Positions 17,844 to 51,473 of a DNA stretch of 64,000 nt are shown here, piece by piece. Position 1 is the stretch's first letter, and every line of letters starts with the position of its first letter. The DNA is from Novakomyces olei (Eukaryota > Ascomycota > Novakomycetes > Novakomycetales > Novakomycetaceae). The notes below the pieces were generated by a model that was not told the DNA's origin, did no database searches, and saw nothing but the letters and a program-made list of their open reading frames with translations. The position numbers were made by a program, and so were the translations under genes. The DNA is taken from assembly GCA_016906335.1 (NCBI GenBank), contig JADEYG010000001.1:1488001-1552000 (forward strand). The letters are read 5' to 3'.

Positions 17844-17862
17844 TTGTTTACATTGTAAACAA
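17844..17862. promoter_or_regulatory. Inverted forkhead-type site (NUD1)
   Basis: TTGTTTAC-ATT-GTAAACAA, a perfect dyad with 8-bp arms and a 3-bp spacer. Each arm is a GTAAACA forkhead-factor core. It ends 46 bp before the NUD1 start codon. Confidence 0.7.
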
Positions 17863-17908
17863 GACTGAAATACTCTATCGGCTGCCTCGGGCGGCAATTA
17901 CTTGTCTG

Positions 17909-20643
17909 ATGGATTTCGCGTCAATGAGCTCAGCGAGTCTCTCCGACCTGGACGAAGACTGGATAGTGCAGAAAGATCAAGAGCCGTCCAGAAGCGCAGT
18001 AGAAACTGTTCATGAGGGCATTAATTCGGCAACTAAAACAACCAAAGTCTTACATGACCCCGTGATCGCTTATGATCCCCCGCCTTGGCTAGCAAGGCCG
18101 CCGGCGGCAGATATACTCTGCAATAACGCGGGCGACTGGCTGTCGCATATGTTTGACGATAAGCCGAGCGAAGGAGCAGACGAGAACAGGGCACCTTCGA
18201 CCGCGATAAAGCGAACGATCAACGACGAGGAAAAACAGGCTCATCAGCGTCTGAGCCCCATTGCGCGGTCTACAAGCATCAATAGACGCATTGATTCTTC
18301 ACGATTTAAAAACTTGGACGTTATAAACGTGGATCAGCTTAACAATGTGCCGTCTCCTGCATTGGCAGAAATAGCAGAGCCGCCTCGTCCTCAAACGCCA
18401 AAGCCGCCGGCGGAAGCACAAGAGCCAGGACGACCTCACTCTTCGCCGCTTAAATTGTTTGGTGCTCACGGCAATGCTTACGATTCGTTTACAAGAGAAA
18501 ATTTGGGCAACGTGGCGGCCCAGATTCAGCAAGGCCAGCCACCGCCCAAGATTAATCTGATTTCTCCACGCAAGCAAAAGAAACGACAGGGTGGCAATAG
18601 CGACAATGGGGGTAATTCGGCGAGTGCCGCTACTTCAAACTCGAGCATTAACCCGGAACGTCTTCTACAAGAAGGCTTGGAAGACGTATTCTTTCTACGC
18701 AAACGTGGGGGCAGACCACAGATAATTCCAGCAGCGGGGAAGGCAGCGAAGCAGGAGAGTCTAAGCAAAACGAATGACGCTTCTAGCTCTTTGATTAAAA
18801 TGTACCAGGATCTATCTGATGCTGGTGGCGCTGGCGGTGATAATAGCAGTACACTGCCCTACAACTCTGTCGACATGGCCCCATCGCCCGCGCCTGAATT
18901 ATCGTCTAGTTCAAATACAAAGCTCTCTGATATGTTTGGCTCAATTGAAAACTTTGAGCGTGATGATTACTTTGACCACGATGTAAATACAAAGCCGCTG
19001 TCTGCCCACTTGGAAGTACCGGAAGAGGAGGAGGCTAATACGACTACTGGTGGCAGTGCCAGTCTCGTGAGTAAAAGACAGGACAGCTTTGGCATTCGAC
19101 GCACGTCTAGTGCGGAAGACGCTTGGCCCGCAGACCAATCGCTTTGGCGCTTCACTGCTGAAGAAATAGCACAATTCTCACATCAAAAGAGACAGCTATG
19201 TAAAGCCCTTAACCGTTGTAATCTTGGCAGTTGGATGGTCGCAACGAAATGCGATATATCAGAGATGCAGTTGGACGGTGTCAACGGTTTACGGGATTTT
19301 TTGCCCGCTTTGCGATCGCTCAAAATTGCTAGAAACCGTATTAAATTGGTACAGGACGCGCCCCCGAATCTGCACGAGCTTTATGCTCAAAGCAATGAAA
19401 TTTCAGACAGCTCGCCGTTCCCGACCCTTGCACGTCTGACTTCGCTAAACTTGTCTTGCAACTTTTGCAGCAGCTTACAGAGTGAGTTGAAAGCACTATT
19501 GCTAGTTTTATATATCTCTTCTAATCGCTGTTTAGGTATAACTGCGCTTCACGCACTGCAACGGTTATCGCTCGATAACAATCGCTTGGAATCCCTAAAC
19601 GGACTGGAAGAATTAAGCAGCTTAAATTACCTAAGCTTATCCGGCAACGGTATTGAATTTGTCGATTTTAAATCGTATTATTTGTAAGTGTATATGGGGT
19701 CCGTACTCAGACTAACGCACAATCAAGACCGCACCTTCGAGTACTGCGGCTGAACGATAATCGCCTTTTACAGTGCCTCGGACTCGAGCGTCTAAAGAAC
19801 TTGGAGCACTTAAATGTGAGCAATAACCATTTACTCGATTTTGGTGATTTGAATCAGCACGTAATGCCAAAGTTGCACACTCTTTTAGTAAACAACAATG
19901 AGCTAGATCATATCAGTTTTTCCTCAATACCGGCTATTGAACGACTCGAGGCTGACAACAATTGTATTTCGCAGTTGTACGATATCGTCCAGGCCCTGTT
20001 CCTTTCGCTCTTGAGCCTCTGCCATCAGCGCATTGGCGATACAGAGGGCCTTAAAGGCATTGAAGACCCGGCTCCTAGTCTCTGTGAGCTTTTGCTGACA
20101 GGAACGCTGCTTCACTCACCAGCCAGGCTTGATCAAGTATCTGATGACTGCCGGGCAAGGAAGCAGATTGAAGGCGGCAGCATAATAACTCTCGAGTCGC
20201 CTTTAAGGATCGTAGGGCTGCAGTCGTGCGGGCTTGCAGAGATCCCGAGCTTAGCCACTCAGCCTTTAGTCATGCATGTAAATATTCGAGACAACGGCAT
20301 TCGCTCTCTCCAAAATTTGTCGGCAATGAAACATCTGCGGAGTATTGTTGCTCGTGATAATACGCTGGACAGCCTTGGCTCAGTCTTGCACGTCGTTAAA
20401 ACTCTGCCTTCCCTGATGCATCTGGATTTGAGAGGAAACCCTCTTGTTCACGGGTTCTATCCTCCGTTTTGTGCAGAAGATTCTTGGCTTGAAGACTGTG
20501 CTCTCCTGCATCAGCAGGCAGACTGGAGTCAGCAGTATGCTGAAAGATTTTACAGCTACCGCCAACGGATTCAACGCGCGTGCCCTCAACTTCGTCTGCT
20601 GGACGGGATGGCTCTTGTGCTGGCAGAGATTGAAGGGCGCTGA
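17909..20643 (+). CDS. NUD1: Nud1/Cdc11 leucine-rich-repeat scaffold of the mitotic-exit/septation network
   Basis: Three exons: 17909-19481, 19536-19683 and 19728-20643, 878 residues. The first about 440 residues are acidic and disordered, with many Ser/Thr and several short motifs. Leucine-rich repeats follow, read across both junctions (LTSLNLSCNF, LQRLSLDNNRLESL, LNYLSLSGNGIEF, LRVLRLNDNRL, LEHLNVSNNHLLDF), ending in a cap with LMHLDLRGNPLV. This architecture is that of budding-yeast Nud1, fission-yeast Cdc11 and centriolin, which hold the Spg1/Tem1 GTPase module at the spindle pole body. Introns are 54 nt (a stopless multiple of three) and 44 nt. The upstream frame is open back to 17801 but the first ATG is 17909. 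The promoter has a forkhead dyad, consistent with M/G1 transcription. Confidence 0.88.
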
Positions 20644-21135
20644 AGCGGTTAGTCTTGTCTGAAGCGGTTAGTCTTGTCTTGCTTTATTACGTTCATGAGC
20701 TGTAAACGGAGCAAACACTATAATTTATTAAAGCTACTCAGATTGATGCAAGGGATCGCTGTGGTCACGCGCAGCGGGAAAGCCCTAGATAGGATAATAA
20801 GTATACGGATTGGTCAAGTGTGAATTGGCGGCGCAAGTATCGTGCGTATAGTCGGGAGTACCATAGCGGTAAACAGTGTATCTGTATCCTGACTCGTAGA
20901 CGCAAACGGCCTGATACCAATGCCGACAGGCCCTGGCGAAATATTCTGAATTCATAATATTATCATTCGCACTTGTAGTGCGCTGTAAATACCGCCATTT
21001 CAAACATACACTTTTAACAAGGTTTAGAACCGTGCAAAACTCAACGCCATAAATGCAAGCCAAATGCAAGCCAAATACAAGCCAAATACAATGAGGGACG
21101 GGATAAGCAATCTAAAAATATTATGTAAAAACTTG
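20644..21135. other. Convergent intergenic region
   Basis: About 490 bp between the NUD1 and MAK16 3' ends. The only candidate is the small minus-strand frame listed next. Confidence 0.5.
20785..20955 (-). CDS. Putative 56-residue Tyr-rich protein
   Basis: A small frame from ATG 20955 gives a 56-residue product with evenly spaced tyrosines and three cysteines (CRHWYQAVCVYESGYRY) and a Pro/Tyr C-terminus. The frame is open further upstream to 21069. I do not recognise it. Its composition is not what random AT-rich spacer would give, but there is no start-context or conservation evidence. It could be the last exon of a small split gene or noise. Confidence 0.25.
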   Translation of the reverse strand: MNSEYFARACRHWYQAVCVYESGYRYTVYRYGTPDYTHDTCAANSHLTNPYTYYPI

Positions 21136-22260
21136 TCAGGCCAAAACGCGCTGTGCCGGCTCCGCATCTTCGTACTCAATCTCCACATGAGCTCCACCTA
21201 CATATTAGTAAAATTGCAGTGCAGGTTGAATATAGCTTACGTTTCCTACGCGCTTCCGGATTGCTGGCATTACTTTTACGCTTTTGACCGGCAGAAGCTA
21301 AAGTCTCCTCTTCAGATTCCGACTCGGAGGAGTCAGACCCAACTTGGTGGCCGTTTTGCCGGAACCAGTCCTCCACGTCACTGACTAATTCATCGTCATC
21401 GCTCACAAACTCAACTTCCCCTGTAACATCGTCTTCCTCCTCCTCTGCCTCTTCGTCATACTCTGCATCTTCCTCAGCGTCCACGACATCACGATCACGC
21501 TCTGCCTCATCGACGTAGCCCTTACGCTGCGCCAGCACTTTGGCCCAGATATCCTCGTTCACATTTAGCGGATTGTCTCCATAAGCACCGCTCTTCAAAC
21601 GCTCTACCAGCTCCTTTTCAATAGACTTTTCCAGTTTAGCAGCAATAAGCGCCTTGCGCTCCCGAATTTGCTCACGCCGGCGCTGTTTCGGTTTGATGGG
21701 CACTAGTGTAGGCGTGTTTGATTCTTCTAGGCGTCGAGCGCGAATCAGATACTGTGTTAATTTTGCAAGGCGCTGCTTGCAGCGATGAATAGGATCCTGT
21801 GGCCAGTACTGTAAATGCTGATCAATCTGCTCGAGTGCCCGGCCGAAATTGCTCGACAATTTTACGCGCTCCCACAACCTCGCTGGCGAGTGGGCACGTT
21901 CAATAGTTTTCATGTACAAGAAGAGACTGCCTCCGTCCTCGCGCACAGTAGCATACCGCGAATTTGCTAGTGGGCAAGATGTTCTGTTTATTAGAATCAA
22001 ACATGGACGGAAACGCAAAGCGGCAGCTATTGCAAAAATAAAACAATTAAAACAAATTAAAGTCAAATTTAGAATAAAATTAAATAAAAATAAAAATAAA
22101 AATAAAAAAGGAACACTGTCAGTGAGTTGGTCAGAAGCCTGTACCTATTGCATAGTCCGGTAGCATTGTAAGCATTCTTACAAAATGCAGCGGTGTCTGT
22201 AGTCACTCGGAATGCACAAAACTGGTGGCCTATGATGCCCCATACGATATCGTCGGCCAT
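21136..22260 (-). CDS. MAK16: Mak16, 60S ribosome-assembly factor
   Basis: Three minus-strand exons: 22145-22260, 21241-21983 and 21136-21197, 306 residues with consistent phases. Diagnostic stretches are [17 protein letters not shown] at the start, [22 protein letters not shown] across junction 1, then [12 protein letters not shown]-like and [13 protein letters not shown], a strongly acidic segment and a basic C-terminus ending HVEIEYED, reconstructed across the 43-nt second intron (branch site ACTAAT). Mak16 acts in the nucleolus in early pre-60S particles. Intron 1 (161 nt) carries an AAATA-rich repeat. The start at 22260 gives the family N-terminus exactly. Confidence 0.96.
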
Positions 22261-22751
22261 AGCCAAATTGGATGCCTTTTGACAAGATGAATTTTTTTTT
22301 ATTTGTGCTTTATTATTTTTTTGTTCAACTTTATTTTCCAGTATTTTAATAAATATTATGTACTATATTCTTACTGAACTGTTGAACAGTTTTCTGTGAA
22401 GTGCCGATAAAAAATATTGTGTTGTATGCATAGTTAAAAAGTATACAATTGACCAATGGTATTGTATGGATAGATTATCGATTATTTTTGTGTTATTATC
22501 AGTAATACTGTATGATTATCAGTATTATTATAATATTAATGTAGTATTATCAGTATTATCAGTATTACTGTATTATTATCAGTATTTACCAGTATTTACC
22601 AGTATTTTACAATATTTAATTAATTTTACAATTTGTTCACTATTATTAGTGCAAGAAGACCAAGCTTGATCCGTCTTCAGCCTAATCGCGCAGCCTGGTT
22701 AGGCTCTACGCACTGTGTGCGATTTGCTGCTATGCTGGGAGACCGTGGAAA
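22261..22751. other. Divergent promoter region with AT repeats
   Basis: About 490 bp between MAK16 and the UPF0029 gene, mostly A+T. The repeat listed next occupies its middle. Confidence 0.6.
22496..22612. repeat. Degenerate TATCAGTATTA tandem repeat
   Basis: Repeated ATCAGTATT-type units, about eight to nine copies with drift, including two TATTTACCAG variants at the 3' end. Confidence 0.75.
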
Positions 22752-23513
22752 ATGGCCAGCAGCCAAGATGCCGGCGACGCTAGCGGTGTATTGGATAACG
22801 TGAACAGTAGCTCTGCCGGTCTAAAATCCAAACTGTCTCAATCCGCTGGGCAAAACAACGGCGATGTGGAAATGTCGGGGATTATTGAGGATCGCGGTTC
22901 CGTCTTTGTTGCGTATTTTATCCCGGAACGCGTCCAGTCGCGTGTACGCGTACGCCTAACCTCTCTGCGATCCGATCCCGCTTACGATATCGTCAGTGCT
23001 GATCACAAAATCGCAGCTTGGCGAACACCTTCGACACAGCGAACACTGTCGTCACAGCAACTGGTGACGACGGGCCACGACGATGACGGTGAGGCTTACG
23101 CGGGTGGGAAATTAGTGCGGTTGTTGACAGAAATGGACGTGTGGGGTTTGGTTGTAGTGGCACGATGGTACGGTGGCATATTGCTGGGTCCCGTACGGTT
23201 TGACCACATTTTGCAGTGCGGCCGCCACGCTATACAAAAATACAAGCAAAAGCAGGCGGGTGCGCAGCAGGTAGAACGGCTGCGTTCCCTTATTGGCCAA
23301 CGTGATCTTACGATCGATGCATTGCGCCGCTCTATTGCGTCACGCCGAGGTACAGAGTCACCTGCTCGTAAGGTGGCAGCACCACCGTCTAGTGCTGATG
23401 TAAAAGTGCTTCAAAACCTGGTTAATGCACGTGATAAGACGATTACTACACTGCGGAATATTTACAAGGAGCTTTCCAGTAGCGAGCCTGCCGGTGAGCC
23501 TGCCAGCCAGTAG
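22752..23513 (+). CDS. UPF0029/IMPACT-domain protein (YDL177C-like)
   Basis: Single exon, 253 residues. Residues about 45-155 form an IMPACT N-terminal (UPF0029) domain: the strand SVFVAYFIPERVQSRVRV, the signature DDDGEAYAGGKLVRLL and the motif VVVARWYGGILLGPVRFDHI. The N-terminus is Ser/Asn-rich. The C-terminal 90 residues are charged and likely coiled coil (VERLRSLIGQRDLTIDALRR). There is no RWD domain, so it is not a full Yih1/IMPACT regulator of Gcn2; it is more like the short fungal UPF0029 proteins whose role is unknown. Start 22752 is the first ATG of the frame. Confidence 0.88.
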   Translation: MASSQDAGDASGVLDNVNSSSAGLKSKLSQSAGQNNGDVEMSGIIEDRGSVFVAYFIPERVQSRVRVRLTSLRSDPAYDIVSADHKIAAWRTPSTQRTLSSQQLVTTGHDDDGEAYAGGKLVRLLTEMDVWGLVVVARWYGGILLGPVRFDHILQCGRHAIQKYKQKQAGAQQVERLRSLIGQRDLTIDALRRSIASRRGTESPARKVAAPPSSADVKVLQNLVNARDKTITTLRNIYKELSSSEPAGEPASQ

Positions 23514-23844
23514 CGTATTGTAATGCTATATCAATATATGAAACGGGTTAATATACGAATCGGCTCTGCTCATGATTGATTTAAATGAATTATTACAAAA
23601 TCAGTAGAGTGATTATGGATCCAATAGTTTATTTGCCATTGCTGTATTAGCAGTAGACTCTGTATTTCCTAGAACGTATAGTATCGACTCTATATTCGAA
23701 TTTTTTTACGGTATTTTAATTAATTAAAACAATTATTAATTAACTATTAATTAATTATTAATTAAATTAAATATTAATTAAATATTAATTAAATATTTAG
23801 TTAAATATCTAGTTAAATCGTCCGCCGGGTCGCTTCACAATGAC
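23514..23844. other. Intergenic region with TTAATTAAATA repeats
   Basis: 331 bp; 23700-23815 is almost wholly ATTAATTAAATA-type repeat. No gene seen. Confidence 0.7.
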
Positions 23845-24985
23845 ATGTCGCTGAACGACCAGGTCAGCTCGTTCAAGAACCGGGTGAAGGCTCAATCTGT
23901 GTATGCACGTACTGCAGGCGAATATGGCGGCGGCGGTTTGTCGGTGTCCTCACCGATCGACACGCCGAGTCCAACGCCGAGCGAACCAAATGGTCGACGG
24001 AAACCGGGAACTCCTCTCAGTGTAGCGTCATATGGTACGAGTTTTAAGATTCAAAAACTGACTCTAAGGCACTCCTGAATCTGCTGTCGGATCACATATG
24101 CTTTCGCAAATGCACTATGCGCTTGAATACTTGAAGGTTGGCTCTATTATCTCCGATCTTGAGAGAAAAGATCTGGTCTTATCTGTCTACTTGTGTTCTA
24201 ACGATTAGCGCATGGAAGTACCAAAGACGGCTGAGGAGATTTCTGCCTATTTGTCGACACCCTTAACGCCCACACTCTTGCAAATTCTACGTACAAATGA
24301 TCGTGTGGTGTATAACGCAGAGAACGGTACGTATACATTTCGACCTTTGCACAACATTCGTTCAGCATCTGCCCTGCTAGCTTTTCTACACGGGAAAAGG
24401 AGCGGTGCTGGTGTGCCCGTGCGAGAGCTTCGTGATGGCTGGGCTCAGGCTGTATCGGAGATTGAACGGCTTGCGGCTGAAGGAGAGGTTTTGGTATTGC
24501 GCACAAAGAAGGATAACGTTCCAAGGCTCGTTTGGGCTAATGACCGTGATCTTTGTCTGGAAATTGACGATGGTAGGCTCTAAACTAGGTTTCAATTTAC
24601 TTTATACAATTAGTCAAGGTCGTATGATTCTTGACGTATCTCGTTTGCACATTTGGGTTATTTTCTCTACCCTTTTCCGTACTAGAGCTTTCCATTTTAT
24701 GTCTTTTCGTCTTGGCTTGCTCTCTTCTGTTCTCTGCCTCTTTAATATTTGTTCTTCTTACGTTCAGATTTTAAAGCGACATATCATCAAATTCCGCTTC
24801 CGAGCCTGGGCGATATTGTAAATGAACTGGAAAAAGCCCATCTCAAACCGACTTCGGTTGATCCGGCAACTGTGCGTCAAGCGGCACCAAAGGCAGAAAC
24901 AAAGCAAAAGAAGCCCCGGCAGCGAATTCGTAAAATCACAAATACACATCTCAATCTTTTACGCAGCAATTTGCGACGAAATTAA
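23845..24985 (+). CDS. TFA2: TFIIE beta subunit (general transcription factor)
   Basis: Four exons: 23845-24034, 24069-24136, 24209-24572 and 24768-24985, 279 residues. The winged-helix core reads SHMLSQMHYALEYLKRMEVPKTAEEISAYL across the second junction, then LLQILRTNDRVVYNAENGTYTFRP, as in TFIIE-beta. The second winged helix follows (VPVRELRDGWAQA...IERLAAEGEVLVLRTKKD), and after the last intron comes the basic tail DDDFKATYHQIPLPSLGDIVNELEKAHLKPT with a Lys/Arg-rich end. It recruits TFIIH to the RNA polymerase II pre-initiation complex. Intron 1 would be only 34 nt with donor GTACGA; an alternative donor at 24022 would make it about 47 nt and drop four residues. Introns 2 and 3 are 72 and 195 nt. 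Confidence 0.9.
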
Positions 24986-25321
24986 GACTGCATTATTATG
25001 AAAAAAAAATTTAGAGATTATGCAATTGGTAGTGGACTTGGTTCAAAGTCTTTAATAATGAAATTTAAAGAATTTGCATGTGCATACTATCATTTGGTGG
25101 AGCATATCAAATATAGAAAAATCTGCGAAATTAATTATTTTTATACACTCTGGCACCTTCAGATGCACTCAACTGTGGATGCTGGTATGGCAACGTAGCA
25201 TAAGGTTGAAAACGTTTATTTGGTTTCTGCTTTTGTGACTTCAAAGTCGCGCAGCACACTCAGGTATAAATATTTAAAGTAAACCTCCCTATTCTTCACG
25301 TCTCGTTAACGCACCAAGTTC
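24986..25321. other. Convergent intergenic region
   Basis: 336 bp between TFIIE-beta and SmF 3' ends. A 66-codon frame (24998-25198) is AT-rich and unconvincing. Confidence 0.5.
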
Positions 25322-25720
25322 CTACTCTTCAGCATGGCCATTTCTAGTGGTCGGGGCACCTGAAACCCACAGTACGTTATTGCATCTGATTGTTAGTATT
25401 TGATTTTAACAGAAATACAAAGCATTATTGATTTGCTCGCATCTTGTATGCAATGTTAATTATTTTTGCTGTTCACTTTAGCTTGGGTCGTTCTTTTTCT
25501 GCTCGTTCCGCATAATCACATACCTAATCATGATTTCTCCCAGCTTTCCTGTGCTATTGTTGTCCACAAACTCTTCCGCATTTTGTAATTGCAGATTCAT
25601 ATAGCCATCAAGACTCTGAAGCACTCCGCGATACTCTTGACCCCACTTTAGTCGTACGCAAACTTCTTTGCCCGTAAGATCTTGTAAGAAAGGTTTTGGG
25701 TTTATCGGTACAAACGACAT
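25322..25720 (-). CDS. SMX3: Sm protein F (spliceosomal snRNP core)
   Basis: Two minus-strand exons, 25524-25720 and 25322-25385, 86 residues, the usual SmF size. The Sm1 motif is [20 protein letters not shown]...[16 protein letters not shown] and Sm2 is [15 protein letters not shown], the latter restored only by removing the 138-nt intron with its TACTAAC branch site. SmF joins the heptameric ring around U1, U2, U4 and U5 snRNAs. The start at 25720 gives the expected short N-terminus. The C-terminus is slightly longer than usual, ending in a polar ten-residue tail. Confidence 0.95.
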
Positions 25721-26045
25721 CTTGCAACACTGACTTGGCAAACACTACCAATTGCAAAGATTTGCGCGCGCAGACAATTGCTCTTTGGTTCTCAATTTGA
25801 GAATAAGCGCGCACTTGCTTTAGCCAACGGGATGTGCGATATGTCACCAGTCCAAGGCTCCTAGTTTATTTTATATTTTATATTCATATTTATATTTTTT
25901 AATTTGTATTATTTTATTCTATTATGCCAGTTTATATATAAAAATACTGCACCTCTATAATATTATTTATTAGAGAATAAATGAGCAAACCAGCCCAGTG
26001 CTGATTGACTGATTGGCCTCTTTTCCACAGGATACTGACGAAAAT
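25721..26045. other. Divergent promoter SmF/SYF2
   Basis: 325 bp separating two splicing genes transcribed in opposite directions. AT-rich, with TATATTTATATTT-like sequence at 25868-25945. Confidence 0.5.
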
Positions 26046-33785: not shown

Positions 33786-34403
33786 TTAGCTTTTAAAGCT
33801 CACTTTTAGACGCTTGTGGTTGATGAGAGTATCGTCGCTATCACTAGCATCAGCAGTATTAGCTCCATCCTTGTCACGCCGTTTTTTCTTCTTTGAACTG
33901 GACGATCCTAAATCTTCTTCCACAACAGCTCCGATCGCCTTTGTATTGCCTCTCCCAAATGGGAGTAAATGATTAGAATTACTAATGCACAAACTTATAA
34001 TGAATACCTCGAGATAAATTCCAGACGATAAAGAAAACAGACGATCTGAGCTCTGGATTTCCGGCCGTCTCCGAGAAGCGTTCCCACGAATGTAACCATC
34101 GAATCCGCGGATCAAATTGCCGCCCATCGATGTGTCTTCAAGGTACTGTCCCTCAGCTTTGTAAATCTGTTCTTCCAATGACACCTGAACCTCATCAGTA
34201 TTAAGACTTTTCAGATAAATCGTAGTAATTACCAAACTCTTGTCTAGAGCGCGTTTCTGCGCCAACAGCTCGCGGAGTTCCCGCTTATTTTGCTCGTACG
34301 ACGAGACCGTAAACTTTGCCGCCTGAGAGCTTTCATCTGAAGCATTTGCGGTGCCATTATTTCGTGCGCCTGAAGCGCGCTGGTTAGAGCCTGTATCGGG
34401 CAT
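33786..34403 (-). CDS. EAF6: Eaf6, subunit of NuA4/NuA3-type histone acetyltransferase complexes
   Basis: Read as one frame of 205 residues from ATG 34403. The conserved Eaf6 block is YEQNKRELRELLAQKRALDKSL...LEEQIYKAEGQYLEDT, then GGNLIRGFDGYIRG, followed by SSDRLFSLSS. The C-terminus is Lys-rich, acidic and disordered. Eaf6 is a small coiled-coil subunit that helps assemble the Esa1 and Sas3 modules. The segment GIYLEVFIISLCISNSNHLL just after the conserved block looks more like retained intron than protein, but I found no pair of splice sites that keeps phase, so the true C-terminus may differ. It is divergent from BUB2. Confidence 0.85.
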   Translation of the reverse strand: MPDTGSNQRASGARNNGTANASDESSQAAKFTVSSYEQNKRELRELLAQKRALDKSLVITTIYLKSLNTDEVQVSLEEQIYKAEGQYLEDTSMGGNLIRGFDGYIRGNASRRRPEIQSSDRLFSLSSGIYLEVFIISLCISNSNHLLPFGRGNTKAIGAVVEEDLGSSSSKKKKRRDKDGANTADASDSDDTLINHKRLKVSFKS

Positions 34404-34556: not shown

Positions 34557-34569
34557 AGGGTTAGGGTTA
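34557..34569. promoter_or_regulatory. TTAGGG-like box, EAF6/BUB2 promoter
   Basis: AGGGTTAGGGTTA, two tandem GGGTTA units, between two divergent starts. Confidence 0.45.
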
Positions 34570-34592: not shown

Positions 34593-34619
34593 TTGTGCAC
34601 ATTTGTAACATGTGGTTGC

Positions 34620-34636
34620 TGTTTACACGGTAAACA
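34620..34636. promoter_or_regulatory. Inverted forkhead-type site (EAF6/BUB2)
   Basis: TGTTTAC-ACG-GTAAACA, a perfect dyad with 7-bp arms and a 3-bp spacer, 55 bp upstream of the BUB2 start. Same spacing as upstream of NUD1 and the gene at 51485. Confidence 0.7.
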
Positions 34637-34691
34637 ATAGGCAACAGCAGACACCCATCTATCCCTCCCTGCACGCGTTGATGCGTAAGCA

Positions 34692-35807
34692 ATGAGCGAC
34701 AAGACAGACGGACTGGCTCGGTACTTGCGTGCGCGCCGCCCACGTAAACGCGATCAGATCCCAGAAAGACTTGCAGACTTGCGTCACCTTGTTTCCTTCA
34801 ATGAAGAAGACGTATTGGCGAGCGAGACGTCGGGTCCGCTTGCACGTGGTGACGCATGGTCTATTCTTCTGGCAGCCAAACCCTTCTCCTACCACGACTA
34901 TATGGCTCTCGTCCGCTGTGGGCCTTCGTCCGCCTATAGCAAAATCAGAAACGATTCTTTTCGGACATTAGCGACGGACAAGACGTTTCAGGGCTTAGTT
35001 ACGGAGGAAGCATTGATACGAGTGCTTAACGCGTACGTTTGGCGTGCGCAGCAGGAAAATGTAAGCCTTCCCTACGTTCAGGGGCTCAATGTGCTGGCTG
35101 CACCTTTTTTATACTGCTGCCAAAGCGAGACAAAGGCATTTGCATTATTCTATCGCTTTATTAAAACGGAGTGTCCAACGTACGCGACACAATCGCTCAC
35201 CGGCGTACACAATGGATTAAAGGTTTGGCTATACAGTATTTTTGCAGCTAACGGAAAAGCTACTAGACGCAGTTATCCGCCACTTGGACCGCGATCTGTA
35301 TGACTACCTGGACAGTAAAAGGCTTTCCGCCCAAATTTATGCCTTCCCCGGTAAGAATATACAGCATTTCCGTCTGCTAATATTCACTAGCTATAATTAC
35401 GTTCAATGCTTGCCGGCCCCCGTTGGCACATGTCCTCAAGCTTTGGGATTTCTTACTAGCTTATGGCGTGCATCACAATGTAGTATGCTGTGCGGCACAA
35501 ATAATCTTACAGCGCGAGCCTCTGCTTAGTACTTCAAAGTAAGAACAAACACGGTTTTGTTCCGTACCCTTTCTTTTTTTTTTTTGGTTTTTTTTTTTTT
35601 TTTTCGCTATGAATACTTATACGATCTAGCCCAATGAAATTGCTTACGAGCATGGCCCCGTTGGACGCTAATATTCTTATTAGCGTATCAGTGCGTTTAA
35701 TTCGAAAAATACCTTCTGATATTTATGCTCTAATTCGTCGTCATACGTACGACAATACCGTTGCACCCGAGATTGATGCGCTATTCGACGAGCAAAGAGA
35801 TTTATAA
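34692..35807 (+). CDS. BUB2: Bub2/Cdc16 TBC-domain GAP for the mitotic-exit/septation GTPase
   Basis: Four exons: 34692-35222, 35260-35350, 35391-35538 and 35630-35807, 315 residues (the family has about 300). TBC motifs: IRNDSFRT carries the arginine-finger Arg and YVQGLN the Gln finger. Bub2-specific stretches are LTGVHNGLKLLDAVI (restored across the 37-nt intron), DYLDSKRLSAQIYAFP, PPLAHVLKLWDFLLAYG and PMKLLTSMAPLDA. With Byr4/Bfa1 it inactivates Spg1/Tem1 at the spindle pole body, acting on the same network that Nud1/Cdc11 scaffolds. Introns are 37, 40 and 91 nt; the last contains T tracts. The 3' end is 81 bp from the convergent U2AF gene. Confidence 0.93.
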
Positions 35808-42174: not shown

Positions 42175-43018
42175 TGTCGATGACGCCGAGCGGTACTGTA
42201 AAACTGTAATAATTTATTTATTTATTGTAAATTTGATATAATGCGGTGCTTTATAAGAGCGTCATCGTCTCCTATTAATTGCAGTTTATTTCTCTTGGAC
42301 GATACTGCAGTATTAAAATTGGCCCTAAATGTCCATTATAATAGGGTGAGGAAGACTAGTAGGGAATATTATTTATCATGGGCTAATAATATTAATATGG
42401 GACAATCGATAAGAAATTCTTATACTGCAAAACAGCCAAACAGCCTGTAAGTGCTTATCTTGTGACTACATTAATTCGGGGAGACACAAAATGGGCTGCA
42501 TTAAATAATGCCACGCAATGTCGCGCTCTCCAGTGTTGCTTTGGGCCAAACATTAGGCTTCTCGTAGTGGGATGAAAGCTCTGGTTGGCTTTCTTGTCGC
42601 TCTACTTGTAAATTGCGACCTGAAAAGTGGAGCAAAAAGAGGCAAACCCTACCATCATAGCCGAACATTGTTGGAGCCGAACCTTTTGAATGTATTGCCG
42701 ACGGTAATAATTCGTATGGGATAGAAGCGCAGCAGACTGTAGAAAATAAAGTAAAATAATTATATAAAATATAATATTATACAATATAATATAATATAAT
42801 TTAATTTAGTATAATATAATTTAATTTAATATAATTTAATATAATATAATTTAATATAATTTAATATAATATAATTTAATATAATATAATTTAATATAAT
42901 ATAATATATTCTGTCATACACGCAATTACCGTAATAATCGCGATATATCGTAAATAAGAGGATAACGGGGGCGTATTCCACGCGGCTAATGCTTTAGCCT
43001 TACCATCGCTACAACACA
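42175..43018. other. Divergent intergenic region with AT repeats
   Basis: 844 bp between the oxidoreductase and PTC7-like starts. Small frames at 42241-42450 and 42602-42784 are not convincing. The repeat listed next dominates the 3' third. Confidence 0.6.
42765..42906. repeat. (ATAATTTAAT)n-type AT repeat
   Basis: About 140 bp made only of ATAAT and TTTAAT units, roughly 100 bp upstream of the PTC7-like start. Confidence 0.9.
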
Positions 43019-43976
43019 ATGGCTGTCGCCCGGCACCGTGTGATGCACACGGTGGGCCGGGCGTTACCAAAAAAATACACGACCGATTTTCCGGCCGCTT
43101 TCCGCGGTCCGTGGCTCCACGGTCGCACAGTAGGCGACGATTCATTCTGTTTCGGCCACAATTTCTTAGCAGTGGCTGACGGCGTTGGCGTATGGAATAC
43201 GCAACGGCAGGGCCATGCCGGACTCTGGTCGCGGCTTATGGTGCATGAATGGAGCTTGCGTGCACAAGTTTTGCAGGCGCAACACCATGAAGACTGTAAT
43301 TTTTAAAATGATGTTTATTTAAAGATATTTATTTAAAGCTCTGACGATTTATACATTGGTCAAGCGCTTCCAACTTGCCTCGCTTTCCGTCCTTTGGCTA
43401 ACGACAGATCTTCCGCTTATGAGAGAAGCGTTGGACGAGGCTCTTGCCGCTGCGTCGGTAATGGCAAAGCACCGAGACCACGATGAGTGGTTCGGTACTA
43501 CTACAATGCTCGCAGCGCTTTACGATAACGTGGGCGGACGGCTATCGGTGTGCAGTATGGGAGACTCCTCCTTGATGGTTTTTCGACCGGGAACGGGACT
43601 AGTGTTCGCGACGGAGGAGGTACGGGAATTTTTCGATGTTCCACGGCAAATTGGCACAAACGCAAACTTCAATTTTCGTACACAAGCAGCGTCTTACTCG
43701 ATACCCCTGACTGATGCGGATTTTGTGGTTACCTCATCCGACGGTCTCACGGACAATGTCTTTGTCCCCGATATATATGATATTATTGTAAACCACGCTG
43801 ACGACCCCACCAAGATTGCACAACTGCTGGTGGAGAAGGCGATGATGGTAGGCGACGATTTATGGTCAGAGAGCCCGTACATGGAGCGCGCGATAAGCGA
43901 GGGGATTCCTTTTAGTGGGGGTAAACGCGATGATTGTACGGTACTTGTATCGCGACTTTCACCAGAGGCGAACTAG
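43019..43976 (+). CDS. PTC7: PP2C-family protein phosphatase (Ptc7-like)
   Basis: Two exons, 43019-43295 and 43408-43976, 281 residues. A basic N-terminus (MAVARHRVMHTVGRALPKK) suits a mitochondrial signal. Metal-binding GDDSFCF and VADGVGVWN are followed by SRLMVHEW; after the junction come DEWFGTTTMLAALYD, LSVCSMGDSSLMVFR, DFVVTSSDGLTDNV and the last aspartates in GGKRDDCTVLVSRL. The 112-nt intron ends in GGCTAACGACAG. Budding-yeast Ptc7 is a mitochondrial or nuclear-envelope phosphatase, depending on splicing, that activates coenzyme Q synthesis. The last acidic metal ligands are intact, so the enzyme should be active. Confidence 0.88.
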
Positions 43977-44392
43977 TTTGTGTGTAGCAAACTAGCGTGT
44001 ATGTAGAGCGCGCGAGATTTAGTTTACATGTAGACCGCGTAGTCTGCTCGTTCCAATTGGAATTATATAGTATACGCGTTGTCTATAGTCTTATCTCTGA
44101 GCAGATGCACGCGTGGCCAATTGACTCGAGCGCCAATCAAACGCCAAGCAATCTCTATCTGTGCCTCGTCTACTGTGCGGACAAGTGTGCCCTCAATTTA
44201 ATTTAATTAAATTATTAATAAAATTATTATTTAATAAAATTATTATTAAATTATATTATTATCAAAGTTATTATTTAATCAAATAGTGTAAAACAGTCGT
44301 ATTAATTATATTTGTTATTTACAGGCTATATTAATACCTATAAAGCCACGAGTCGTAAAAGCACGTAGGCAGTATATTAGGCCCTGAAGCCA
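43977..44392. other. Intergenic region
   Basis: 416 bp between two plus-strand genes; 44190-44280 is TTAAT-rich. No gene seen. Confidence 0.6.
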
Positions 44393-46121
44393 ATGGAGCC
44401 AGCACGGCTCTTGCGGTCGCGTTTCTTTTTCCGGCTGCTACCGTTCCAACGGTTCATATGTATGTCGCCTATTCTTTTTTGCGTGGCAGTTTTTATGGGT
44501 GCCTGGCCACGCGCACGCGTTTCTTTGGCTCCCATCTTTTTGATGAGTTGGGAGCGGCTTCTTCACCCCTTCATTTGACTAACCATTCTCTGCATTGCCG
44601 GGCGAGCCTCTGTGCTCTTCCCGACCCTATCGGCCATTGCTTTACGTGAATATACAGTCGTAGTAGTATCGGCTATTGCAATACTAACTCTACTGTATCC
44701 GCATCCTGGCGATGATGTACTTGAAAATGGACGGAAATTCAAAACGTCAGAGGCGCCGCCAATTGATATGGAGGCCATTCAAGAAAGGCAGCGGCAGGCT
44801 TCCTTAAAACAAAAAAATGACAAGATTACTCTTCCCGTGATCCCTGACCCTCCGTCGTCACCAAAGCGTAGTATCCGTGATAAGCTGGCTTATTATTACC
44901 CTTACACAGCCGAAATACGGGAGAAGGCTTACCCGGGATTCATCTGGCAGACATGGAAACACTCCTTTGAAGACGAAAATTTTGAGTCGCGTTTGCGCCC
45001 GCTGGCACAGGCATGGACGGACAAGCACCCGGAGAGTGTACACGAGGTACATTGGCTTCTTTTTTTCTATTTTGATTGCGATTTCAAATATCCTACATCA
45101 TTGTTGGACGTTCTGCGGAATGTAAATAGAAAATTTGCGCTCTCCGTCTTTTCTTTTCCGTTTTTTGTTTTCCGTCTAATTGAGCACGGCAACTATCTCG
45201 GCCGCGATTTTTTATTTTCATTGTTTATATTCTTTTAGCTATTTCATTTTTTTCCGTTCGAGTTGATGCTTGAATTGTGCTCTCTTAACCCGCTTGCTCT
45301 TTACTCGACTAGTCTTACGCAAAGTCCATATACTAACGTGGGCAGGTTGTCCCAGACGGCTATGCTGTCAATATGATAAAGTACCTATACTACCATATCC
45401 CCGAGGTTGCAGAGGCGTACGAGGCGCTGCCCCAGCCCGTATTAAAAGCAGACTTTTTCCGTTACTTGATTCTGTTTGCACGCGGCGGAGTTTATACGGA
45501 CATTGACACGGAACCGTTGCGGCCTGCAAATGAGTGGGTTCCTGATACTTTTGGTCTGGACGCACAGGGAATGACTGTGGGCATTGAAGCGGACCCTGAT
45601 CGGCCGGACTGGGCAAAGTGGTATGCTCGTCGAATCCAATTTTGTCAGTGGACAATTCGGGCCAAACCTGGTCATCCGGCTCTGCTGGAAACAATTGCAC
45701 GTATTACCGAGCGTACACGTAAAAAGAAGAAATCAAACACACTCAATATCGAATCGACCTCTGTCATGGAATGGACGGGGCCTGCAGTGTGGACAGATGC
45801 GCTTATGGCGTACTTTAATACGCCTGAAGTTTTGGCATCTTTTGCAGAGCAAAATAAAGACGACAAGGAGTTGCGAAATGTAAAAAAAATCGATCCTGTG
45901 TTCTTTACAAAACTGGAAAAGGCCGTTCGCGTGGGCGATGTTGTAGTGCTGCCTATCACCGCCTTCAGCCCTGACCAAGGTCATATGGGGTCCAAGCCGT
46001 CTTCAGACCCAGACGCTATGGTCAAGCACCATTTTGATGGAAGGTAATTTAATGGCCTGTTATGTGGATTTATGGACTAACAATACCCAGCTGGAAACCG
46101 GAAGAAGAACGCATGAATTAG
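44393..46121 (+). CDS. OCH1: Och1/Hoc1-family alpha-1,6-mannosyltransferase (GT32)
   Basis: Four exons: 44393-44459, 44607-45046, 45346-46043 and 46091-46121, 411 residues. A basic start is followed by a signal-anchor helix (YTVVVVSAIAILTLLY), a stem, then the GT32 catalytic domain: GFIWQTWK, PVLKADFFRYLILFARGGVYTDIDTEPLRP with the metal-binding TDIDT (DxD), and MEWTGPAVWTDAL. The last 31-nt exon supplies WKPEEERMN after FDGS, the usual Och1 end. It starts outer-chain mannose addition on N-glycans in the cis-Golgi. Exons 2-4 are firm; the first exon and the 147-nt intron rest on phase and a GTATGT donor. Introns are 147, 299 and 47 nt. Confidence 0.88.
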
Positions 46122-47525
46122 CAACATCATTTTAATGATAACTCATATAACATCAGCCATTGAGAGGCACTAAAATTCCTTAGTTTGCTCGTTTACTTTG
46201 TAAGCAATTGGCAATAAATTGTTTTGTCGTCAATTTAACGCGATATTATTCATAGCTTGCCAAGGGAGATTTCCGGGTTTCATTTCATTTCAAATTACGT
46301 TCCGTCAAGAAACATAAATTCTGATCACGTTGCATATGCCCACTGAACCAGAAATTATTTCAATTAAATTTATTCCATATTACAAACATATACAAGACAA
46401 TTTCGGTAATAATTACAATATGTACTAAATAGTGGTTTCTTTAATATAAAAAAAAAATTCTCAAAGGCCAAGTCACCGAGCATTATCGGCTCATACGATG
46501 ACGGCACTCGGCAGACATGGAAAAAGACGTGGATATATTAATTCTATATACGTACGCGAGCACCGCCCCAAGTCTACGATGAGGACAAGATCATGTAAGA
46601 TTAGAGTGTAAAATTCGGTGACGTAAGTGATTAGGTTTATTAGCGCTAGATTTAGCGCTTTTCACCGTGCGGTCTGCAACTGCCGACGGGACGCATAAAA
46701 TTTTCACGCTAAATTCTGGTCGACTTTGTACATGTAAACCGCAAAAAGCGATTTAACGTCAGGTTTCGGTATTTGCGTAACTAAATAAAGCTGCAGCTGC
46801 GATGTACCGATTCGATGATCGTGTTCTACCGTAATGACGAGCCTAGTGCAATGGTCTATAAAGGTATATATAAATGAGATCTTGTAGTTTGCAAATCTAC
46901 TAGTTGCATTCAGACTTGTGTCATGGAAGTAGTAATTTTAGCATTCGAGGATAACTCTCAGCGTTTTAAAGCAGCAAGTTTGTACTTTCTGTTCAATTGG
47001 CCATAATAGCTTTTGCTAATATGGCTCTCACTATATATACCCTGATTATTTAATGTCAACCCCCACCCCACTTTTCTTTTCTTCCACGCTTTTCTCGGCT
47101 GACGAGAAGGGTAACAGGCTGATTCTACACCCCCAAAGATCGACGAGCCCAGCAAGCAAATTTTCTAGTTAAAAAATAAAATAAAATATGCCCATAGACT
47201 TATAAATAGGGAGCGCTAACTTGAAGTACTTCAGCTAGAGCACTTCAATCCTCAATCTCTTGCCAAACAAATGCAAAGTATTTGCATGTAACTGTACCAT
47301 ACATTGTGTGGAGATTAATTCTGATATCATCTTTCAAGCTTGTCAGCAGATTGATTGGACAACGATTTTGCGCTTTTTATGTTTACGAAATTTTACGTCA
47401 TCTAGACGCTTTCTTTTGAAAATCCATCATTGGATTCAAGAAACCGAGGTTTCTGAAAAAATTATAAAACGCAAGTCTTTGCAGCAATTGCCTTTGACGG
47501 TCAGTCAAGTGCCTACTGTTTTACA
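46122..47525. other. 1.4-kb region without a supported gene
   Basis: The longest gene-free stretch. It contains moderately GC-rich islands near 46470-46530 and 46590-46830 and two TATA-like boxes (near 46867 and at 47201), but no credible reading frame over 70 codons and no tRNA, snRNA or C/D snoRNA I could fold by eye. Confidence 0.6.
47201..47209 (+). promoter_or_regulatory. TATA box (TATAAATAG)
   Basis: A strong TATA element 317 bp upstream of the sulfotransferase-like start. I noticed no comparably perfect TATA box close to the housekeeping genes. Confidence 0.45.
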
Positions 47526-48382
47526 ATGGCCAAGTCAATTGTTTTATGGTCGCATCCCCGCAGTGTTTCCACTGCATTTACACGCTCAATACTCTCGCGG
47601 CCTGAAGACTTTGCGGTACTCCACGAACCATATTCAGAGCCGTGCTATTATAACCCCAAAGAATATGTGATTGATAGGTTCGAAGAGAAAACGAACCCCG
47701 TCACTTTTGCAGATGTTACAGCCAGAATCCTTGCCAGCAATGAGCCAAAGACGAATTTCACCAAAGACATGGCCGGGGTAAGTTGGTTATATAGCAGCTA
47801 CGTATTCAGTCACTAACATCACCACAGTACATTGTTGATATTCGCCAGTACCCACCACGGTTTCTAGTCTCGGACGCGGATTTTCTGCAAATGCAGCATA
47901 CGTTTCTCATTCGTGACCCGGTGCGCTCTGTACCAAGTTACTACCGGTGCTGTGAACGTCTGATTAAAGAATTTGGTAAATGGTCCCCCGACGAGACAGG
48001 ACTGCTCGAGTCTAAAATACTGTACGATCATCTGGTCCGTTTGGCGCCAGAGAGGCCGCCTTTGGTGCTGGACGCGCAGGATCTTATTGAGAGACCAGAG
48101 CAAGTTATGCGCGTGTGGTGTGAGTACGTGGGTATTCCTTTCGATCCCAAGATGCTTACCTGGGAACCTGCTCCAGTGCCCGAGTTTGAGATCTGGAAAG
48201 GCTGGCATGATGACGCAGAGCAGACTTCTGGTTTCAAAACCGATCGGCCTCCAAGCAATCAGCTGCCCCACAAATCTACGTCTGACGCGGACAGTGAGGC
48301 CCTGCCTGATGATGTGTGGCGCGATATCAACCGCAATATCCCGTACTACCAGTATCTATATGAGCGGAGGCATCGATTCTGA
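47526..48382 (+). CDS. Sulfotransferase-like P-loop protein
   Basis: Two exons, 47526-47777 and 47828-48382, 268 residues, phase 0 junction and a CACTAAC branch site. The N-terminal IVLWSHPRSVSTAFTRS matches the 5'-PAPS-binding loop, and FLIRDPVRSVPSYYR matches the 3'-phosphate-binding motif, in the right spacing for cytosolic sulfotransferase folds. The rest (DLIERPEQVMRVWCEYVGIPFD and WKGWHDDAE) resembles a family found in bacteria and scattered fungi and often annotated only as sulfotransferase-like. Substrate and even catalysis are unknown. A TATA box and an unusually long upstream spacer suggest regulated expression. Confidence 0.8.
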
Positions 48383-48916
48383 ATTGGAGAATCGGCATTG
48401 GGTCTAATGTATTATCTTATGCAGTGATAGATGCGATCGCGTAAGAGGAGTGTACTGATATTTTAACGATATTATGTATGGCATTGCATTATACGTGCCT
48501 GTGTATGTATAAATATCTATGCTTCTAGTACAAATTTTCTGAATTCCAAATCTGCTTGTCTGTGGTATCGACTAATTCTAACCGTCGGCCGTTCAAACCT
48601 GGCTCACGCCGTATATTCATGTCCGTATAGACGTAACACAAAAGATCAGGTATGGGATAGGATATCTTTAGGCAAAAAGATGCCTTTTTGCTGTGCGGCA
48701 TTTAGTAAGGCTATGGCTCGTCGTACAATTTGCACTGACCATTTACTTGCGATTGCCCTAATAACCCTAGTATCGTCCTAGGCCCTAATATCGCCTAATT
48801 AACGCAGTATCGTCCATAACTAACCCTAATATCGTCTCTAGTATCGTCCAATATCGTCTAATTAACCCTATAATACCATACTGGCCGTCAAGGCTCCATC
48901 TTTAGTGTATATATAT
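48383..48916. other. Intergenic region
   Basis: 534 bp between two plus-strand genes. No gene seen; the repeat listed next fills the 3' part. Confidence 0.6.
48755..48875. repeat. Degenerate TATCGTC/CCCTAA repeat cluster
   Basis: Six TATCGTCC-like units are interleaved with about five CCCTAA elements in 120 bp, ending some 40 bp upstream of the FGGY-kinase start. The CCCTAA parts resemble TTAGGG-type boxes. Confidence 0.75.
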
Positions 48917-50741
48917 ATGCATATTGGCATTGATGTCGGCAGCGCAAGTGTGCGTGCAGCCTTGTTGAATGCGGAGCACGAGCTTTTAGCAGTCTCCACA
49001 CACGAAATCCGTACTTTAGAACATGGCCATTATATGGCAAGTTGCCAATGCTGATTGGAACTAACACGCTACAGGAGCACAATGCACATGAAATATGGAC
49101 GGCAATTGAAGCCTGTATTGCAAAGCTGCCGCCACGCAATAAAGTCACGTCAATCGGCGTGTGTGCCACATGTTCAATGGTGCTATGCCGCCAGGACAGT
49201 GGCGACGCGGTCCCTATTCCCGGAGGCATTGGAGGTGACGTAATAAAATGGTGCGACCAGCGAGCGGTACGGCAAACGGCAAAACTGAACGCTGCGCCTG
49301 AGGCTTCTGCCCTATTTGCTCGTACCGGCGGACGAATTGACGTTGAAATGGCTCTGCCCAAACTTTTGTGGATCAGTGAGCAGGCCGATGTGGCGGGGCT
49401 GCGTGCCTTTGACTTGGCCGACTGGATAGTCTTTTGTCTGACAGGCAACGATACTTGCAGCTATATTGCCGCTATGTACAATGGATGGGACGCAGAGCGT
49501 GGAGGATGGCCGGCTCAGTTTTTCAAGACTATGCAACTCAACGAGTCAGCGCTGGGGCTGAATGTAAAGCAGAGTGGGTCCCCTGCCGGCCGGATTAAAG
49601 GCGATATTGCACTCGGCTGGCAGGTTCCTTCAAGCACTATTGTGGCTGTCGGGATTATTGACGGCTTTGCCGGCTGGATCGGGCCCTGCTTGGAGCGCTC
49701 TGCTCGCCGAGCCGGGTATTACAATGGCTGCCTGGCTTGCGTAAGTGGGACCAGCTCCTGCTTTTACGTGGCCACTAACGCTGACGTGGGGAAGGGCAAT
49801 ATAATCGAGAGCACGCACGGCCTTTGGGGTCCGTTTCCCAATGCTATTGCGTCGAGTCCCGTCACGCTTTCAGAGGCAGGACAAACTGCTACTGGCTCAT
49901 TGCTGTACTCTGTCGCCCACAGCCACGCCGGCTGGGCTATAGTGCAGCGCGTCAGAGGCGCACTGTCGCCACTCGAATGGCTGAGCCAGTATTGTATAAG
50001 CCTGCGGTACTCGCAGCAGGCTCAGCGGCAGCTGCACTGGGTAGAAGTTTTACAGCGAAGCCGCTTGCATGGTATGCTGACACTGAAAATCTATGGTTTA
50101 CAAAATGACAAAATGACAAAATAAATAACAAAATAAATGAATGAATAAATAAATGAATAAATAAATAGAGAAATGCGTCGTCTTTACAATTCTGACTTGC
50201 AACAGTGTACCCCGACTTTGCTGGTAACCGTACACCCGTGGCGGACGAGCGGCTGTGCGGTGCAGTACACGGGCTACGGCTCTCTGCGCACGGAGACTTT
50301 AGCAATGCGAGAAAGACTCTTGAAGGTGTCAGCGACGAGGAGTACGCATTGCTGGACCAACTGGGCGAGCTGTGTGTAGCCGTTATAGAATCATTGTGCT
50401 TTCAAACAAGGCAGATTGCGGACAAGTTCCGTAGCGCAGGCCATAATATTACTCATATCTCTGTGGCTGGTGGTCAAGCTCAGAATGCGATTTTTACAGA
50501 GCTGCTGGCAACAATTACGCAGCTGCCTGTACGTGTAGCTCGTCATTCCAGCGTTGCAGTAGTAACTGGGGCTGCAATTCTTGGATCGCTCGCCGTCCCG
50601 GCCGGTGAAGGCGGGTTTGTTAAAGACGAACGTGCTCAAATTATGCCCGATACTAGTGGTGAGACACAGGCATTAGTGCAGCGGCGGTTCCGCTATTACC
50701 TAGACATGCTGGAGTTCGAATTGGCCCATTTGGAAGCGTAG
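48917..50741 (+). CDS. FGGY-family carbohydrate (pentulose) kinase
   Basis: Three exons: 48917-49036, 49075-50071 and 50206-50741, 550 residues. The first phosphate motif is MHIGIDVGSASVRAALL, followed by GHYMEHNAHEIWTAI across intron 1, KWCDQRA in the sugar-binding lobe, LACVSGTSSCFYVA, LHVYPDFAGNRTPVADERL across intron 2 and the adenosine motif HISVAGGQAQN. It is nearest to Ydr109c/FGGY-type D-ribulose kinases, which probably repair or phosphorylate ribulose. Intron 1 (38 nt) uses a GC donor (GCAAGT) with ACTAAC and CAG; the GT alternatives break the frame. Intron 2 is 134 nt and contains AAATGAATAAATA repeats. Confidence 0.88.
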
Positions 50742-51115
50742 TTTAACGTTATACGGCTATTTTCTTCGCGGGCTGGCTGGCTTCGGCTATAGATACAATT
50801 TCATCAACTTTACCATACGATTTCGTTACTCGCCAGTACAATTTATTTGCAGCGTAGCAGCTACGAGGATTAAACTAGAAACCATCAGTGCTTTAGAGGC
50901 ACGCATAAAGCTGCTATCCTTATCGAATTAATCTTTAATGTCTGTAGACATACGGCAATACTGGGATAAGCGCTCAATAATAAGGCCAGTTAGTTAGATA
51001 ATCTAGATGTAGTATTTGTATTACTAAAACTATTGTGTAAAATGCTTCTTGTTTGTGAAAAGATATATTAAAGTTCCTGCCAGTACTTATAACAGTTAGT
51101 GTTCGGGGAAGATAA

Positions 51116-51133
51116 TTAACCCTAACCCTAACC
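51116..51133. promoter_or_regulatory. Triple TTAGGG-like box
   Basis: TTAACCCTAACCCTAACC, three near-perfect telomere-type units, about 350 bp upstream of the start at 51485. The best match to this motif in the window. Confidence 0.5.
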
Positions 51134-51448
51134 GATTCTGGCTTAGTATGACTAGACTACTTTTATCCCGACAAAATCGCTATATAATATATGTATACGT
51201 GAAACCTTTCAAAAACAGTACTAGAAAAAAATAACATTAAATAAAATCATATAAAACGAAATAATATTAAATAGAATCATATTAATTATAGTGCTCCTCT
51301 GTCCTTTACGTAGTGACGACTAAACAGGAGCATTACACGCTGTTAAATTACTGATAATAGCCATGTAACTAATATATTTGCTTCTACGCAACAACGGGAA
51401 TACCAATGAAAAAAAAAGAGATAAAAATAAAACTATGTCGCTAGTAGC

Positions 51449-51473
51449 TGTTTGTTTACAACGTAAACAAACA
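51449..51473. promoter_or_regulatory. Inverted forkhead-type site (unknown gene)
   Basis: Arms TGTTTGTTTAC and GTAAACAAACA with a 3-bp AAC spacer: an 11-bp perfect inverted repeat, the longest of the three dyads. It ends only 11 bp before the predicted ATG, so the real start codon may lie further downstream or the leader is very short. Confidence 0.7.

Follow-up and report, generated by a model that had tools for sequence, protein, structure and literature searches.

A rigid head-to-head forkhead dyad at mitotic genes of Novakomyces olei, probably part of a forkhead-RFX regulon

In budding yeast, the forkhead factors Fkh1/2 and Hcm1 drive spindle, kinetochore and G2/M genes from single sites, acting together with Mcm1 on the CLB2 cluster, and at ciliary genes forkhead proteins (FoxJ1 or FKH-8) are said to cooperate with RFX. 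The closest described system is that of fission yeast, for which excerpts of the literature report that Fkh2, Sep1 and Mbx1 bind mitotic gene promoters, with Sep1 acting as activator and Fkh2 as general repressor (PMC9340479), that Sak1, an RFX factor, is a positive regulator of the same mitotic cluster (PMC9340479, citing Garg et al. 2015), and that the S. pombe forkhead motif reads TTGTTTAC and one mitotic cluster contains a forkhead motif and, in opposing orientation, an HMG-type motif (PMC2758837). Head-to-head binding of inverted forkhead repeats is described, again in an excerpt, for FoxP3, with a 4-nt gap preferred and 3 tolerated (PMC12820563). Here we analyse a window of 64,000 nucleotides from Novakomyces olei (assembly GCA_016906335.1, contig JADEYG010000001.1, positions 1,488,001 to 1,552,000, forward strand; positions below count from its first letter), in which three promoters share the inverted forkhead pair GTTTACNNNGTAAAC, referred to as the dyad. 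The collective evidence makes it probable that the dyad belongs to a forkhead-RFX mitotic regulon like that of fission yeast, which in this fungus takes the form of forkhead sites paired head to head. Such a regulon is already known, and the fixed-gap dyad is what is new; open-licence literature searches returned no recognised description of a fixed-gap forkhead dyad in a fungus.

Within the window, the exact 15-bp pattern GTTTACNNNGTAAAC is present in three copies only (17846-17860, 34621-34635 and 51454-51468), and it was absent from all of 100 dinucleotide shuffles of the window. The preliminary description, made from the letters of the DNA, had noticed the same three copies and estimated 0.004 by chance, which is close to the 0.0055 expected from the base composition of the window. 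Every copy extends to the 17-bp form TGTTTACNNNGTAAACA, in which TGTTTAC and GTAAACA are separated by ATT at 17845-17861, by ACG at 34620-34636 and by AAC at 51453-51469, the palindrome of the last reaching approximately 11 bp per arm; no strand is assigned to the dyads. Their placement just upstream of gene starts, also claimed at that stage, is borne out by distances of 47, 55 and 15 bp to the respective ATG. The first dyad precedes the ATG (17909) of a NUD1/Cdc11-like gene on the plus strand (main open reading frame (ORF) 17909-19687), whose C-terminal leucine-rich repeats (Pfam) run on into a further ORF at 19864-20643. The second lies between two divergent genes, upstream of the ATG (34692) of a BUB2/Cdc16-like gene with a TBC (RabGAP) domain (Pfam; plus strand, first ORF 34692-35303, more exons appearing to follow) and, on its opposite side, about 217 bp from the start (34403) of an EAF6-like gene encoding a NuA4 subunit (minus strand, 33786-34403; NuA4/Eaf6 domain in Pfam). 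The third is followed by an ORF of 149 amino acids (aa) on the plus strand (51485-51934, ATG at 51485), which has a hydrophobic N-terminus and no match in Pfam. The names NUD1 and BUB2 fit, and we assume them from domain layout; a search of solved structures gave general leucine-rich repeat proteins only for the NUD1-like product and nothing for the BUB2-like one. The even spacing of the three dyads, at about 16.8 kb, is absent among the 12 genome sites described below and was taken as coincidence. Two further sequence features of the window are a 17-bp tandem repeat in four copies at 17634-17701, some 145 bp upstream of the NUD1-like dyad, and an imperfect fourth hexamer dyad, GTTTACTTTGTAAGC, at 46191-46205, which falls outside the list of forkhead 17-mers.

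The window sits on contig C1 of a genome of 14.34 Mb in 15 contigs, which was scanned with the reversed pattern as the main control, itself variable with composition and low-complexity sequence (16 occurrences at gap 4 vs 3 at gap 3). Genome-wide, the hexamer dyad has 12 exact copies compared to 2 of the control, and 11 of the 12 carry the forkhead 7-mer on both arms (TGTTTAC-N3-GTAAACA, with T before and A after), so that the forkhead core RYAAACA is present on each arm as GTAAACA and the half-sites merit the forkhead-type label they had been given. The flanking T and A recur in 7 of 8 independent hexamer dyads outside the window, with the duplicated SEC24 segment counted once (P 1e-7). When up to one mismatch is allowed, the 17-mer occurs 22 times vs 3 in the control, and the RY-degenerate consensus dyad TGTTTRYNNNRYAAACA occurs 19 times vs 3. 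Four of 11 one-mismatch 17-mers share an identical change from GTAAACA to ATAAACA, which is forkhead-permitted (P 0.001), and the flanks continue as GTAAACAAA, with A at +1 in 21 and at +2 in 20 of 38 arms.

The half-site pair is rigid: it is arranged head to head, with a gap of 3 or 2 bp. Inverted 7-mer pairs with gaps of 0-30 bp number 18 vs 7 in the control, 11 of them at gap 3, 2 at gap 2 and the other 5 scattered, and outside the window gap 3 accounts for 7 of 14 independent pairs although 31 gaps are possible (P 1e-7). The preliminary description had proposed a rigid 3-bp spacing; rigidity holds and gap 3 is the commonest, but gap 2 is used as well (20 vs 5, up to one mismatch). In the genome there was no enrichment at gap 4 (5 vs 16, up to one mismatch), of opposite-facing forkhead pairs (1 vs 3) or of direct forkhead repeats (33 vs 127). 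Like the FoxP3 inverted repeat (IR-FKHM), the dyad thus sets TGTTTAC and GTAAACA head to head, unlike it in that the 4-nt gap preferred by FoxP3 is not the enriched one, and in that the FoxP3 dimer requires an RBR loop and acts in T cells, not in mitosis. It likewise departs from the S. pombe motif, which the available excerpts report as a single site. Centre to centre, the half-sites are 10 bp apart at gap 3, about one helical turn, and 9 bp apart at gap 2, and because of these distances two forkhead DNA-binding domains reading the dyad head to head, as a promoter element at the level of DNA, would sit on almost the same side of the helix and be near enough for cooperative binding. The best-surviving alternative, although an unlikely one, is that the dyad represents an ordinary pair of forkhead sites whose spacing comes from site clustering or DNA shape, without a protein-protein dimer. 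It is consistent with the statement, in the excerpted account, that forkheads mostly bind isolated sites, with FoxP3 named there as the exception (PMC12820563), and with the one-mismatch sites of NUF2, RAD21, SMC4 and Aurora, where one arm only is perfect; the enrichment of gaps 3 and 2 in head-to-head orientation, and of none of the other arrangements, argues against it.

To evaluate the functional association of the dyad, genes were collected whose starts are no more than about 400 bp from a dyad of gap 2 or 3, one mismatch being allowed. There are 42 such sites, of which 39 were examined locally (C7:1797087 and C15:936333, which are identical in sequence, and C1:1657868 were left out). Gene identities came from Pfam and solved-structure matches, the first exons of RAD21 and NUF2 being read by eye, and the sorting into mitotic and non-mitotic was our own. 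Genes of mitosis or septation make up 11 of the 16 identified dyad neighbours, compared to 1 of 35 other identified genes at the examined loci (P 1e-6), where the single comparison gene is a CENP-U match below cut-off and NDC1 was scored non-mitotic. The share is 9/13 with the window genes removed (P 4e-6) and 7/16 in the strictest count, which accepts a named solved-structure match only (P 6e-4); by class, it is 5/8 at exact sites (P 3e-4) and 6/8 at one-mismatch sites (P 3e-5). Exact dyads precede genes for MAD3 (about 46 bp to the ATG) and a Kar3-type kinesin (159 bp), both by solved-structure match, and for an ADIP-family protein (112 bp; below Pfam's cut-off), relatives of which, such as SSX2IP/Msd1, are located at spindle poles. 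Solved-structure matches also identify Aurora (16 bp), NUF2 (20 bp), SMC4 (38 bp), haspin (132 bp) and RAD21 (162 bp) behind one-mismatch dyads, and a further such dyad stands 159 bp from the ATG of a glucanase of family GH81, to which Eng1 of fission yeast belongs. Eng1 is described, in an excerpt of the source, as the endo-beta-1,3-glucanase that dissolves the septum (PMC4780762). Other neighbours are a 2-hydroxyacid dehydrogenase together with an FSH1 hydrolase at a one-mismatch dyad (locus L033) and, at exact dyads, a 484-aa Drf_GBD protein (L007, 184 bp) and a kelch membrane protein (391 bp); those without assigned function are the 149-aa ORF of the window (15 bp), a 403-aa coiled coil (L008, 34 bp), a 796-aa protein (397 bp), a 619-aa protein (L031, 257 bp) and an IQ-like protein (99 bp). 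Homologue searches with the L008 coiled coil and the L007 Drf_GBD protein gave no matches.

A link to mitotic exit and septation had been suggested from two of the window genes. Genome scan and gene-function comparison together uphold a link to cell division, with a set that is broader and takes in kinetochore, checkpoint, cohesin, condensin, Aurora and haspin. Several observations weigh against so simple an association. Exact gap-3 sites outside the window have a mitotic neighbour in only 1 of 3 identified cases (P 0.15), rising to 3 of 5 when exact gap-2 sites are added (P 0.004), and among the classical mitotic neighbours the majority (Aurora, haspin, NUF2, RAD21, SMC4) stand behind a one-mismatch dyad. 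Exact dyads are found at genes of unassigned function (the 149-aa ORF, the 403-aa coiled coil, the 796-aa protein) and at apparently unrelated ones (the kelch membrane protein, and a sugar transporter 852 bp off). By these class counts, the mitotic link belongs to the gap-2/gap-3 family as a whole and cannot be put down to the exact 17-mer alone.

A second motif accompanies the dyad. It was sought in the 80-bp flanks of 20 sites, comprising the 9 exact noncoding gap-3 sites, locus L005 and 10 gap-2 or one-mismatch sites selected for their closeness to a gene start, with the SEC24 pair left aside and 17 other sites tallied separately. GCAAC/GTTGC is the most enriched of all 512 5-mers, present in 15 of 20 flanks vs a background of 18.7% (P 7e-8); its extension RGCAAC is found in 13 of 20 (background 10%), and of the 9 exact noncoding gap-3 sites, a set picked regardless of genes, 7 have GTTGC (P 2e-4). 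RFX factors recognise GTTGCC/GTTGCT as their half-site, a sequence that likewise agrees with GNAACR, the PCB box of fission yeast; PCB-like matches are present in 18/19 dyad flanks vs 68% (P 0.007). In the window, GTTGC on the minus strand at 34615-34619 directly abuts the dyad at 34620-34636, GCAAC on the plus strand follows it after 4 bp (34641-34645), and another plus-strand GCAAC (51388-51392) lies 60 bp upstream of the dyad at 51453-51469. The association is weaker elsewhere: GTTGC is found in 7 of the 17 remaining one-mismatch dyads (22/37 for both dyad sets combined) and in 3 of 9 sites with wrong spacing or the hexamer only, it is absent within 80 bp at the NUD1, NUF2, RAD21, SMC4 and L010 sites, and across the genome the composite GCAAC-N2-4-TGTTTAC shows no excess (6 vs 4), although 3 of the 6 are dyad sites; these points count against the forkhead-RFX reading. 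Most other cell-cycle boxes stay at background in 19 dyad flanks. The strict MADS box CC[AT]6GG occurs in 0/19 (background 1.3%; MADS genes were not searched for), the looser MADS/Mcm1 boxes CCN6GG and CCWWWNNRG in 8/19 (47%) and 6/19 (32%), unlike the Mcm1 partnership of the budding yeast CLB2 cluster, and MCB (2/19 vs 9%), Ace2-type CCAGC (10/19 vs 47%) and extra single forkhead sites (3/19 vs 13%) show no excess. SCB-like (4/19 vs 7%) and telobox (3/19 vs 4%) motifs are marginal (P 0.04-0.05, uncorrected).

Could the dyad itself be an RFX site, that is, a variant of the X-box to which the RFX protein binds? The X-box consensus GTTNCC-N2-GGNAAC equals GTTTAC-N2-GTAAAC in length and symmetry, so the inverted layout is the same, an RFX gene is present and RFX-type half-sites are nearby. 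We consider this improbable, for the outer T and A (11/12) and the AA extension fit a forkhead and lie outside the X-box consensus, position 5 (A) departs from it, the commonest exact gap is 3, and true GTTGC half-sites are found separately from the dyad. The preliminary description had favoured a dimer or another specific factor. Because an RFX-like half-site accompanies many dyads, a two-factor regulon provides a better fit than a lone special dimer factor.

Proximity to genes, defined as a position no more than 200 bp ahead of an ORF with 140 codons or more, was found for 6 of 11 exact gap-3 sites vs 7.2% background (P 5e-5). Of the others, 1/11 was scored coding (background 52%) and 4/11 elsewhere; SEC24 and its truncated copy account for the coding site and for one of the four elsewhere. 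Eight loci in which these half-sites stand at gap 0, 1, 5 or 6 comprise five coding, one proximal and two elsewhere, a comparison drawn not at random but from the first places of the site list and from the inverted-pair list, with two further rows drawing again on half-sites from L036 and the L017 dyad. Three points detract from the positional evidence. Outside the window, proximity falls to 3/8 (P 0.016); one of these sites, L010, rests on a doubtful 245-aa ORF, and without it the count is 2/8 (P 0.11). In addition, some dyads lie only 15-38 bp ahead of the ATG, which is near for the site of a classical activator. Dyads so near the ATG may overlap the transcription start, making repression outside mitosis as plausible as activation.

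The same closeness raises the alternative of an RNA hairpin in the 5' leader that governs how mitotic mRNAs are translated or how stable they are, for many copies are 15-60 bp ahead of the ATG and would, if transcribed, form a stem of 7-11 bp, in which the GH81 variant keeps a G-U pair. It appears very improbable in view of the C-A mismatch on the transcript strand of the genes for haspin, the IQ-like protein and the 619-aa protein, where the forkhead consensus is kept over pairing, of the uncompensated changes in NUF2, RAD21, SMC4 and Aurora, and of several sites 159-397 bp from the ATG. That the copies arose by chance or from repeats, and were noticed as three fell in one window, is hardly credible. 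In its favour, the SEC24 segment duplication supplies 2/11 exact copies, and three copies in 34 kb (P 0.002) were the very ground for selection; against it, the flank and spacing tests outside the window are strong and the gene-set test persists without the window genes.

With domain counts that are lower bounds, the genome encodes at least three forkhead domains and at least one RFX domain (C12:1107220). One forkhead (C9:234757) adjoins an FHA ORF and is closest to yeast Fkh1, and is taken as the Fkh2-type protein (FHA plus forkhead); a second (C7:1622378) has no FHA match and is presumably Sep1/Hcm1-like; the third has an FHA ORF upstream and is one we take to be Fhl1-like. Fkh2-type, putative Sep1-like and RFX genes are thus all present as in fission yeast, and the forkhead motif at mitotic and septation genes, with RFX on the same cluster, resembles the arrangement of PBF (Fkh2, Sep1, Mbx1) and Sak1. 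From these parallels we infer that the dyad is most likely occupied by the Fkh2-type protein, the Sep1/Hcm1-like protein or both, as homo- or heterodimer, and that the RFX protein would assist from the nearby GTTGC half-site; together, forkheads and RFX might time the expression of mitotic and septation genes, by activation or repression, in the manner of fission yeast Fkh2, Sep1 and Sak1. A bolder proposition, which we regard as tentative, is that a dedicated forkhead pair, possibly a heterodimer of Fkh2 (repressor) and Sep1 (activator), reads the symmetric site with its 2-3 bp gap beside an RFX half-site as a main mitotic code of this Taphrinomycotina lineage. If true, the pair would parallel, in a fungus, the FoxP3 head-to-head dimer and, in mitosis, the FOX-RFX ciliary module, which involves the same two factor families and microtubule-related genes, differing in that they are ciliary, not mitotic.

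The study matters in that it outlines a compact, testable cis-code of mitosis for a lineage of fungi beyond the model yeasts. A pattern of 16-17 bp with one mismatch allowed recovers Aurora, haspin, MAD3, NUF2, RAD21, SMC4 and septation-network-like genes, and it nominates as candidate mitotic genes the 149-aa ORF at 51485-51934, the 403-aa L008 coiled coil, the 484-aa L007 Drf_GBD protein and the 619-aa L031 protein. The parallel with fission yeast suggests that the forkhead-RFX mitotic circuit predates that organism. The dyad offers a natural site for asking if fungal forkheads dimerise head to head, as the excerpted account describes for FoxP3.

Two of the 11 exact 17-bp copies, a coding segment of SEC24 and its duplicate, count against the mitotic reading. 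The SEC24 gene (L006:3726-7641) and a truncated, rearranged duplicate on another contig (L012:2343-7475) are about 92-93% identical, and both contain the dyad. An identical 32-bp sequence with GTTTAC/GTAAAC ends is present at no fewer than six places (at least C1:337112, C1:1009991, C2:53284, C2:64971, C3:1433187 and C3:1438542) and is likely part of a dispersed repeat. At L036:1518-1544 (C12, about 232.9 kb), three consecutive forkhead sites occur, of which the first and second are inverted towards one another and separated by 6 bp. Telomere-repeat-like AGGGTTAGGGTTA / AACCCTAACCCTAACC sequences are present in promoters at 34557-34569 and 51118-51133 of the window and at about 1011-1023 of L047, and AGGGTTA is found in 3/19 dyad flanks. 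Just 3' of the Drf_GBD gene, L007:3-2605 (C7 near 873-876 kb) holds a tandem array whose unit measures 167 bp and whose higher-order period is 395 bp. The window also encodes a FAN1 protein with 45-48% identity to its six best matches, of which the two named ones are the Taphrinomycotina fungi Savitreella phatthalungensis and Taphrina deformans.

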